Positions 32,536 to 54,205 of a stretch of DNA of 64,000 bases are shown here, one piece after another. Each line of letters begins with the position of its first letter. Within the stretch, counting starts at the first letter, position 1. The DNA is taken from positions 1-64,000 of the forward strand of contig JAFAZC010000202.1 of assembly GCA_019239965.1 (NCBI GenBank), written 5' to 3'. Made by a program: the position numbers and the translations under genes. The notes below the pieces were generated by a model. The model made no database searches and was not told where the DNA came from. It worked only from the letters and a program-made list of their open reading frames with translations. Source of the stretch: Kutzneria sp. GTDB lineage: Bacteria; Actinomycetota; Actinomycetes; Mycobacteriales; Pseudonocardiaceae.

Positions 32536-32579
32536 CAAGAACTGAGGGCCGGTGCGGCAGCACCGGCCCTCAGTTCTTG
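32536..32579 (+). terminator. Strong hairpin terminator after tRNA-His
   Basis: A perfect 20-bp inverted repeat (arms 32536-32555 and 32560-32579, loop GGCA) starts right after the tRNA. It has no long T-run, as is common for actinobacterial terminators. Confidence 0.85.
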
Positions 32580-37260: not shown

Positions 37261-37896
37261 TCAGACGACTCCCTCGAGATCGTCCAACAGCCTCCGGCCG
37301 CGCCGAACGATCTCGCTGGCCGCCAACACGGCCACCCCAATGACACACAGAAGGACATAGCCATCGGTGAACCTCTGGTAAGGGGGGTGGCCCTGGGGGG
37401 TCATCATCGCGGATGCCACGAACGTCGCGCCGGAGTCCAGCACGGCGGCAACGATCGAGCCAAGAGTCAGCGTCCAACCGGCCTTGGTCAACAGCCCGAC
37501 CGCCTCGGCGGAGAACAGGAGTCGATCAGCTCGCCGTCCAAGGTGAACCGCCTTGGCCAGCCAGTTCAGGGACAGCAGCCCGACGAGCACGCCGGGGAAC
37601 CAGGTGAGGAAGTACAGCGCACCGGTGAGAGTCGGATGGTGGGGATCGCGGACCGTCACCGTGATGTCGTGGGGTAGGACATCTGCGCCCGGCTTGACGA
37701 TGCCGGTCAGGGGCGGTTGAGGAGCGGGCACTGATACGTCGATGCCGGCGCTGATACCCACACTGTGGAAGGCGATGGCATAGTTGCCGACGACACCAAC
37801 GGCCGCGCTCATCACGGCCAAGCCGAACCCCAACGAGAGCAACACGTTGAGCGCGCCGAGCCAACGCGCCGCCGACCGGACCGGGATGTCTGTCAC
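37261..37896 (-). CDS. DUF2975-like membrane protein
   Basis: 211 residues with four membrane segments (near 15-40, 95-115, 135-160, 180-200) and a charged C-terminus ending RRLLDDLEGVV, which resembles the end of DUF2975 proteins. Those are usually followed by a small Cro/CI-type regulator, but none is present here. GTG 37896 follows AAGGGGG. A large perfect palindrome covers the promoter. Family call is tentative. Confidence 0.6.
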   Translation of the reverse strand: MTDIPVRSAARWLGALNVLLSLGFGLAVMSAAVGVVGNYAIAFHSVGISAGIDVSVPAPQPPLTGIVKPGADVLPHDITVTVRDPHHPTLTGALYFLTWFPGVLVGLLSLNWLAKAVHLGRRADRLLFSAEAVGLLTKAGWTLTLGSIVAAVLDSGATFVASAMMTPQGHPPYQRFTDGYVLLCVIGVAVLAASEIVRRGRRLLDDLEGVV

Positions 37897-37900
37897 GAAG

Positions 37901-37951
37901 CCCCCTTGTTTATCGTTTATCGATCACATCGATAAACGATAAACAAGGGGG
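37901..37951. repeat. 24-bp perfect inverted repeat over DUF2975-like promoter
   Basis: Arms 37901-37924 and 37928-37951 are perfectly complementary, with CAC between. Each arm contains two tandem GATAAAC/GTTTATC units. On the minus strand a -35 TTGACG lies at 37959-37964, and the -10 (TATCGT, 17 bp later) falls inside the palindrome. The other arm reaches the ribosome-binding site. It can act as a repressor operator and would also form an RNA hairpin masking the start. Confidence 0.8.
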
Positions 37952-38049
37952 GAGGTTCCGTCAACCAATTCCCTGGTTCGAAGTGGACTGCGAATCTCCG
38001 ATACGTAATCAGCCGACAAAGCCGGGCAAGGACGGCCCACCACGATACA

Positions 38050-38074
38050 AGAAACCCAGGCCTTCTGACCTGGG
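38050..38074 (-). terminator. Terminator of tRNA-Lys
   Basis: On the minus strand CCCAGG, an 8-nt loop and CCTGGG are followed by TTTCTTG, seven bases past the tRNA 3' end. A typical intrinsic terminator. Confidence 0.75.
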
Positions 38075-38080
38075 GACTTG

Positions 38081-38153
<73 letters not shown>

Positions 38154-38184
38154 GAACCAGGATCTCTCCTGGCGACGGCAGAAA

Positions 38185-38213
38185 CTTAGCACACGGCACG
38201 CAGCGCTCTCCAA
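38185..38213 (-). promoter_or_regulatory. Promoter of tRNA-Lys
   Basis: On the minus strand TTGGAG (38208-38213) and GCTAAG (38185-38190) are separated by exactly 17 bp and lie 32 bp before the tRNA. The same GCTAAG sequence precedes tRNA-His. Confidence 0.6.
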
Positions 38214-38283
38214 CCGGTCGGCGGCCGCCGTGCCCGTCGGCAAGTGTCCAGGTCAACCGCTGAGACGGGGCACCGGGGGTTCA

Positions 38284-39033
38284 CTACACCTCGTGGCCGC
38301 TCGGTCTGTCCACAGGCACGGACGGCTCCCGCTTTCGTCGGAGCGCGTCGATCCCGTCTAGCATGCGCTCCACCGCGAAGTCGAAGCGACGGGCCAGGTC
38401 GGGGCCGGTGATCTCGGTCGCGAGCGCGAGCGTGTTGGGGTACTCCGCCACCGGGAGCTCCGCCAGGTGGTCACGGATACCGTCTAGGAACTCTCTGGGT
38501 GGCATGCCGTTCTTGACCTGGACGGACAACGGGGCCTGCTCGTTGGCCACGAACCCCAGCACAGTGACTATGAGGAAGTAACAGGCGTAGGCGGTGTCGT
38601 GCCCGTCCAACCCTGTCGACCGCAACGCACCGAGGATCGCCTCCATGCACCGCAGCCGATTCGACCCGGTGGAGAAGCGTCCGGCCAACAGACGCGCGGA
38701 GTCTCGGCGTGCCAGCAAATAGCAACGCATCTCCCGCAGGAACGTGGCGAGACCGACTCGCCAGTCGACCGAGTCGAGTGGAGACCGTGTGTCCACATCG
38801 GCCAGCAGCTCATCGGAGAGCAGGTCGAGCAGTTCGTCCTTGTCCCGGACGTGCCAGTACATCGAGGCCGCACGCACACCGAGTTCTTCAGCAACGTTGC
38901 GCATGGTGAGCGCATCCAGGCCGTTACGTTCCAACACTCGCAGGCCCGCGGCGAGCACCGCCTCCCGGCTGACCACCGACTCGCCCGCGGGCGGCCGTCC
39001 CCTGCGTCGCTTCTGGGGGCGTATGCTGTCCAC
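38284..39033 (-). CDS. TetR family regulator with TetR-type C-terminal domain
   Basis: 249 residues. A basic N-terminus (RPQKRRRGRPPAGE) precedes the helix-turn-helix (LTMRNVAEELGVRAASMYWHVRDKDELLDLL). The C-terminal half has the all-helical architecture of the TetR_C group. It is divergent from an AMP-dependent ligase, its probable target. The GTG at 39033 has no ribosome-binding site, and TAGATT lies six bases before it, which suggests a leaderless message. Confidence 0.9.
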   Translation of the reverse strand: MDSIRPQKRRRGRPPAGESVVSREAVLAAGLRVLERNGLDALTMRNVAEELGVRAASMYWHVRDKDELLDLLSDELLADVDTRSPLDSVDWRVGLATFLREMRCYLLARRDSARLLAGRFSTGSNRLRCMEAILGALRSTGLDGHDTAYACYFLIVTVLGFVANEQAPLSVQVKNGMPPREFLDGIRDHLAELPVAEYPNTLALATEITGPDLARRFDFAVERMLDGIDALRRKREPSVPVDRPSGHEV

Positions 39034-52411: not shown

Positions 52412-54205
52412 TCATGAACGTCCGCCAGGCAGGAACTCCTGTGCCTTGGTCTTGATTCCCTTGGTCAGCATGCTCCACACGTCAGCGTCGCCCCGCAGCA
52501 TCGATTCGGCCGTCGACCGGATCTGCTCGAACGTGGCATGGGGTGGGATCGGCGGGATATTGGGATCACAGTGCACGTCGAGCACGACAGGACGGTCGGC
52601 GACGAGTGCCTCGTGCCATGCGGCTCCGAGCTGGCCGGGATCGGTCACGGTGATTCCACTGAGTCCGAGCACCCGTGCGAAGTCGGCGTAGGAGACGTCT
52701 GGAAGGGACTGGGACTCCTGGAACTTCGGAGCTCCGCCCATCGCCCGCAGTTCCCAGGTCACCTGGTTGAGGTCGTTGTTGTGCAGTATGCAGACGATGC
52801 AACGCGGGTCTGACCAATGCTTGTAATAGCGCTGGATCGTAATCAGTTCCGCCATACCATTCATCTGCATCGCGCCGTCTCCGACGAGAGCGATCGCCGG
52901 TCGGTCCGGATGAGCGAACTTGGCGCCGATAGCGTAGGGGACCCCTGGTCCCATAGTGGCCAGTGTTCCCGACAGTGAGGCCCGCATCCCACCACGCAAC
53001 TTCAGCGTGCGGGCATACCAGTTCGCCACGGACCCCGAGTCCGACGTCACGATGGCATTGTCCGGGACACGCGAGGACAGCTCCCAGGTGATCCGCATCG
53101 GGTTGATCGGGTCCGCGTCCACCATGGACTCGCGCTCCATCACCTCCCACCACCGTGCCACGTTCTTCTCGATCGACTGTCGCCACGATCGGTCCTGCTT
53201 GCGCTCGAGCAACGGAATCAGCGCGGCCAGGGTCGCCTTCGCGTCCCCGACGAGGTTGGCCTCGGTGGGGTAGCGCATGCCGATGAACTTTCCGTCGATG
53301 TCGATCTGGATGCCGCGCGCCTTGCCGTACGGCGGGAGGAAGTGGGAGTACGGAAAGTTCGACCCGACGATCAACAGCGTGTCGCAGTCTGCCATCAGCT
53401 CGTAACTCGGCCGAGTTCCCAGCAAGCCGATCGCACCGGTCACGTAGGGCAGGTCATCAGGCAGCACGTCCTTGCCAAGCAATGCCTTGGCCACTCCCGC
53501 ACCGGTGAGCTCGGCGACCTCACGCACCTCATCGTCGGCGTGCCGCGCCCCCTGTCCGATCAGTATCGCGACCTTCTTGCCACCGTTGAGGATCTCCGCT
53601 GCGCGGGCCAATTCCTCGGCCGCGGGCATCGTCACCGAACGCGCCTGGCTGGGTGGACTGGATGGCACGTGCTTGAACACGTGCTTCGGCGGGTTGTAGG
53701 GCTCCTCCTGCAGGTCGTTGGGAATGATCAAGGCAGTCGGCGCCCGCTCAGCCTCGGCGATCCGCATCGCCCGATCCAACACATTGGGCAACTGCTCCGA
53801 GACGTTGACCTCAACCAGGTAGGCACTGGCGACGTCCTTGAACAGGGACTGAAGGTCCACCTCCTGCTGGTAACTGCCGCCCATGGCACTGCGGGCCGTC
53901 TGCCCGACAATCGCCACCACCGGCACGTGATCCAGCTTCGCGTCGTAGAGACCGTTGAGCAGGTGAATGGCACCGGGCCCCGAGGTGGCCATGCACACGC
54001 CCACCTTGCCGCTGAACTTGGCGTAGCCGACCGCCTCGAAGGCGGCCATTTCCTCATGTCTGGCCTGGATGAAGGCGGGATGGTTGTCCGCTCGACCAAA
54101 TGCGGCGACGATGCCGTTGATGCCGTCGCCCGGATAACCGAACACCTGCTCGACACCCCAGTCGCGCAGTCGCTTGAGCAGGTAGTCGCCAACGGACTCG
54201 GCCAT
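52412..54205 (-). CDS. ThDP-dependent pyruvate oxidase/dehydrogenase (PoxB-like)
   Basis: 597 residues. Three domains of the acetolactate synthase/pyruvate oxidase family: N-terminal pyrimidine-binding (GYPGDGINGIVAAFG, RHEEMAAFEAVGYAKFSG), central FAD-fold, and ThDP-binding (ALVGDGAMQMNGMAELIT...HNNDLNQVTWE). It would decarboxylate pyruvate to acetate or acetyl phosphate using FAD and a quinone or O2. ATG 54205 follows GAGGAGG, and the open frame continuing to 54271 is leader. First gene of a run with the DUF6328 and DUF3040 genes. Confidence 0.9.
   Translation of the reverse strand: MAESVGDYLLKRLRDWGVEQVFGYPGDGINGIVAAFGRADNHPAFIQARHEEMAAFEAVGYAKFSGKVGVCMATSGPGAIHLLNGLYDAKLDHVPVVAIVGQTARSAMGGSYQQEVDLQSLFKDVASAYLVEVNVSEQLPNVLDRAMRIAEAERAPTALIIPNDLQEEPYNPPKHVFKHVPSSPPSQARSVTMPAAEELARAAEILNGGKKVAILIGQGARHADDEVREVAELTGAGVAKALLGKDVLPDDLPYVTGAIGLLGTRPSYELMADCDTLLIVGSNFPYSHFLPPYGKARGIQIDIDGKFIGMRYPTEANLVGDAKATLAALIPLLERKQDRSWRQSIEKNVARWWEVMERESMVDADPINPMRITWELSSRVPDNAIVTSDSGSVANWYARTLKLRGGMRASLSGTLATMGPGVPYAIGAKFAHPDRPAIALVGDGAMQMNGMAELITIQRYYKHWSDPRCIVCILHNNDLNQVTWELRAMGGAPKFQESQSLPDVSYADFARVLGLSGITVTDPGQLGAAWHEALVADRPVVLDVHCDPNIPPIPPHATFEQIRSTAESMLRGDADVWSMLTKGIKTKAQEFLPGGRS

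Follow-up and report, generated by a model that had tools for sequence, protein, structure and literature searches.

In a stretch of Kutzneria sp. DNA of 64,000 nucleotides (the window), a DUF2975-type gene stands without the HTH_26 gene that usually follows such genes, and a long palindrome covers its promoter. What does this palindrome do, and which protein would read it? With a probability of roughly 80%, we interpret it as a double operator at which a small Cro/CI-type HTH_26 repressor of the DUF2975-linked family would bind, with the regulator supplied in trans from a gene on another contig, C103; the interpretation is built on sequence comparison. The palindrome and its surroundings comprise the following features.

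37901..37951, unstranded: palindrome of 51 bp with perfect 24-bp arms and centre CAC/GTG (sequence; inverted-repeat search)
37959..37964, minus strand: -35-like TTGACG (promoter scan)
37936..37941, minus strand: -10-like TATCGT after a 17-nt spacer, coincident with the first operator box (promoter scan)
37901..37907, minus strand: Shine-Dalgarno-like AAGGGGG at the outer end of the downstream arm (sequence)
37261..37896, minus strand: gene of an orphan DUF2975-type membrane protein of 211 aa with a GTG start and four hydrophobic helices (profile searches, helix prediction)
38055..38074, minus strand: intrinsic-terminator-like hairpin directly behind tRNA-Lys, given as context (hairpin scan)

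The arm at 37901-37924 is 100% complementary to that at 37928-37951; each has 24 nt, and 3 nt lie between them. They are the longest perfect arms among the inverted repeats in the window; for arms of 24 bp with a loop of at most 12, base composition predicts about 4e-8 cases in 64 kb. The sole sigma-70-like promoter found in a scan of 37800-38250 lies on the minus strand and consists of TTGACG (37964-37959), 17 nt and TATCGT (37941-37936), so that the -10 and the first TATCG box coincide; the region as a whole reads TTGACG-17 nt-TATCGTTTATCGATGTGATCGATAAACGATAAACAAGGGGGCTTCGTG on this strand. The GTG start follows at 37896, and its Shine-Dalgarno AAGGGGG closes the right arm in the minus-strand reading. 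The 211-aa protein scored 17.9 bits against PF11188, below the Pfam cut-off of 27; a profile built from relatives matched the product of 37261-37896 with 69 bits (E 3e-20), which places it with DUF2975. Its AlphaFold model is mediocre (pLDDT 70). An earlier note on this DNA had described perfect 24-bp arms around a 3-bp centre, lying on a DUF2975-like promoter, spanning the -10 and reaching the ribosome-binding site, and all of this is borne out by the coordinates, the promoter and the profile match.

We fetched the relatives of the window gene, 56 DUF2975 loci in total, and in 54 of them a small HTH_26 protein is encoded directly behind DUF2975. TATCG/CGATA boxes were present at 53 of the 54 DUF2975-HTH loci of the family, with 6.26 boxes per kb upstream versus 0.20 elsewhere (31 times denser); as thirty of them are the canonical members with the highest scores, the set leans towards one branch. 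When named bacterial genomes were scanned with the HTH family, 80 loci came up in Actinobacteria, Proteobacteria, Firmicutes, Bacteroidetes, Planctomycetes and others, and TATCG/CGATA boxes were again enriched at the upstream place (5.2 versus 1.5 per kb). Conservation upstream of homologues, which the earlier note had proposed as a check, is therefore seen in both sets. The commonest TATCG-to-CGATA offset is 10, followed by 26, which points to a 15-bp dyad and to two such dyads one base apart. When half-sites were permuted, near-exact TATCG dyads were found in 78 of 133 zones, versus 11 for the next best permutation and a median of 1. The scoring matrix, trained without this genome, consists of T-A-T-C/T-G, five mostly A/T bases and C-A/G-A-T-A.

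The inner 31 bp of the window palindrome consist of two adjacent 15-bp dyads plus 1 bp, with the motif TATYG-N5-CRATA.

37911..37941, minus strand: candidate 31-bp double operator TATCG TTTAT CGATG T GATCG ATAAA CGATA, in the 2x15+1 layout of DUF2975-HTH_26 promoters
37927..37941, minus strand: candidate operator half A (TATCG-N5-CGATG), overlapping the -10 (25.8 bits with the matrix, best in 64 kb)
37911..37925, minus strand: candidate operator half B (GATCG-N5-CGATA) (24.8 bits, second in 64 kb)

After these two halves, the next-best score in the window is 9.2 bits. Across 20 further stretches of the genome, higher scores were obtained only at two sites on C103 (30.5 and 26.1), and the next one was 14.3. 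The 31 bp are identical at 29 positions to the operator of the Saccharothrix DUF2975-HTH pair (L092) and at 24-26 positions to those of 13 further loci from Actinobacteria and Alphaproteobacteria. Similarity of operators correlates with similarity of regulators (rho 0.46, phylogeny ignored). Each of the inner half-sites is one base off the motif, which counts against an operator. The DUF2975-HTH_26 pairs of Saccharothrix (L092), Streptomyces (L145), Nonomuraea (L129) and Sphingopyxis (L142) share the gene family, the promoter motif and the 31-bp double-site layout with the window; in contrast to the window, all four have an HTH_26 gene behind DUF2975. A regulatory role of the palindrome on the DUF2975 promoter, as the earlier note had supposed, thus appears very probable, and its length beyond one dimer site is resolved into two adjacent 15-bp dyads plus an outer 10 bp per arm. 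The tandem GATAAAC units seen by the same note are real, in that all four occurrences in the window fall within the palindrome, but the conserved unit is TATCG-N5-CGATA used twice. We rejected GATAAAC as the functional unit; relatives conserve TATCG/CGATA, and the flanking AAAC varies.

If the palindrome is an operator, a regulator has to be found elsewhere. No HTH_26-like frame is present in the 64-kb window, and only 57 bp behind the DUF2975 gene a convergent gene follows; the gene being an orphan, its regulator would have to act in trans. The claim that the usual partner is missing therefore holds for the neighbourhood and the window, but not for the genome, where a search revealed one close HTH_26 homologue at C103:54776-54958 (E 1.3e-20; next match 0.06). 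This protein scores 76 bits against PF13443, and the Saccharothrix L092 regulator is 77% identical to it. Its gene comes after another DUF2975 gene, at C103:54095-54751; the promoter of this DUF2975 gene bears TATCGTTTCACGATA at 54081-54095 and has one strong dyad versus two in the window, which counts against a double operator. Directly behind the regulator stop and ahead of a CPBP/Rce1-like gene lies another palindrome, C103:54992-55044 (L169:14992-15044), with 24-bp perfect arms around TATCGTTTTTCGATA. It has the top matrix score of all sites (30.5 bits), and the CPBP gene may therefore be a further member of the regulon; the site may be an operator for this gene, an operon-ending hairpin, or both. 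As the genome is 94% complete, another regulator could have been missed.

Adjacency of DUF2975 and HTH_26 is usual but not universal, given orphans in other genomes. Orphan DUF2975 genes with operator boxes and no HTH gene beside them were identified in seven other genomes, six from genus g8 (L063, L187, L190, L192, L194, L196) and G022 (L066). All seven also have a DUF2975 copy that is paired with an HTH gene and has boxes in its promoter (L185, L188, L191, L193, L195, L197, L186), and an orphan with a separate paired copy is thus a recurring arrangement. In one more g8 genome (L189), no exact boxes lie near the orphan gene. The g8 cases probably all go back to a single inherited event. Like the window gene, the g8 orphans and L066 combine boxes, no HTH neighbour and a paired copy elsewhere in the genome; unlike it, they represent another motif branch (CGATTGAnnnTCGATAG, 14-bp spacing) and have no long perfect palindrome.

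From these features we infer binding, repression and action in trans as follows. Two HTH_26 dimers would occupy the adjacent 15-bp dyads at the -10 and the transcript start, and the bound dimers would block RNA polymerase and so repress the DUF2975 gene; a layout in which the sites cover the -10 and the start point suits plain steric repression. The regulator would be supplied in trans, and the sole close candidate is the C103 HTH_26 protein, with its own DUF2975 operon and the same motif. A signal to the repressor might come from the DUF2975 membrane protein. Among solved structures, the HTH profile matches best, by sequence, to PDB 3tyr, which we take to be VanUG. At its own promoter, VanUG occupies a pair of adjacent imperfect palindromes; it represses its own expression as well as a second promoter (PMC4405338). 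The VanUG/PUG operator of the Enterococcus faecalis vanG operon (PMC4405338) resembles our reading of the window in its small Cro/CI-type HTH protein, two adjacent palindromes over a promoter, negative autoregulation and repression of a second promoter. However, the motif described for it has two imperfect repeats of 14 bp between -70 and -20, as opposed to two 15-bp dyads from about -12 to +19 in the window; the vanG operon is not a DUF2975 locus, and the candidate regulator of the window is not adjacent.

The outer 10 bp of each arm lie outside the conserved operator, which leaves them unexplained by it, and the chance of their pairing is about 3e-6. Among 146 matrix sites located upstream of HTH genes, the DUF2975-HTH_26 pairs included, no perfect arm is longer than 13 bp, versus 24 in the window. 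The ten extra pairs mirror the Shine-Dalgarno. At another locus, L008, the downstream side is the same (CGATAAGCAAGGGGG) but its mirror copy is absent, and therefore the upstream (left) CCCCCTTG copy is probably the derived one. Two papers (PMC7202029, PMC8794818) describe template switching at imperfect palindromes as a known route to perfect arms. The outer arms probably arose by such perfecting, in which, starting from an operator that was already a palindrome, template switching would have duplicated the side with the Shine-Dalgarno on the opposite side. They could additionally block translation of read-through RNA.

Long, perfect arms are also what a REP-like or mobile inverted repeat inserted in the promoter by chance would have, and scattered copies of such a repeat were named in the earlier note as evidence against a regulatory site. 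By exact search, however, the tandem unit GATAAACGATAAAC has a single location in the genome, and it was not found in 389 other genomes of the family; with two mismatches allowed, it has scattered partial matches in the genome. Using 432 kb of this genome as background, we found one other perfect 24-bp palindrome, the C103 site described above, which bears the TATCG/CGATA motif too. An inserted repeat is thus extremely improbable. It is also very unlikely, though less so, that another regulator uses the site, such as the product of the TetR-type gene at 38284-39033, which is nearby and belongs to a class that binds palindromes: the motif is tied to DUF2975-HTH_26 loci across many phyla and not to TetR genes, and nothing else in the window, the TetR promoter included, matches the matrix above 9.2 bits. 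We rejected the neighbouring TetR as regulator on the absence of the motif from its promoter.

A main role as an RNA hairpin deserves more weight, although we consider it unlikely. In transcripts initiated upstream, the 24-bp stem would hide the Shine-Dalgarno and stop translation, or would end transcription. The fold is strong (-52 kcal/mol, z -4.7), the entire Shine-Dalgarno is within the stem, and the same window has a long perfect hairpin directly behind tRNA-His. Yet with the predicted promoter situated on the palindrome, the gene's own transcript would start near the centre of the palindrome without the upstream arm, and such a transcript folds only weakly; the full hairpin would need transcription from upstream. 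A hairpin hiding the Shine-Dalgarno of the gene's own transcript was accordingly rejected. The palindrome was also rejected as a terminator for tRNA-Lys, which has the terminator-like hairpin at 38055..38074; the palindrome has no T-run and was not listed by the terminator scan. In an Rfam scan, the tRNA alone was above threshold. An RNA role also gives no reason why other genomes conserve the TATCG boxes.

We found no published description of a TATYG-N5-CRATA operator in the literature searched; DUF2975 is mentioned once in each of two papers there, which by title do not have its regulation as their subject, and a search for YozG/yoaS revealed nothing on regulation. There is almost no literature on DUF2975 and its HTH partner. 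The window site would thus be an ordinary repressor operator, but of an apparently undescribed and widely distributed family, in an orphan setting and with an unusually long perfect palindrome. The motif provides a concrete, testable operator for a widespread uncharacterised pair and allows prediction of members regulated in trans, while the 24-bp arms exemplify how a plain operator may become a long perfect palindrome. More speculatively, and with considerable doubt, DUF2975-HTH_26 might be a phylum-spanning autoregulated module of membrane protein and repressor with a shared operator code, from which orphan DUF2975 genes recurrently arise and stay under the control of the repressor in trans. 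In this genome, two of its operators (the window site and C103:54992-55044) would have been enlarged to 24-bp perfect palindromes that work as operators at the DNA level and also as hairpins in RNA.

Several minor observations were made along the way. The genome measures 4.7 Mb versus 10-12 Mb for other species placed in its genus. The hairpin at 32536-32579 of the window, at the very end of tRNA-His, has perfect 20-bp arms and no T-run and is terminator-like. Two more long perfect hairpins in this genome, at L180:848-895 and L167:14216-14256, have 20- and 18-bp arms. Among the other TATCG..CGATA pairs in the genome, two, at C163:50765-50784 and C198:5061-5080, read TATCGAAC-N4-GTTCGATA and resemble LexA boxes (TCGAAC-N4-GTTCGA).
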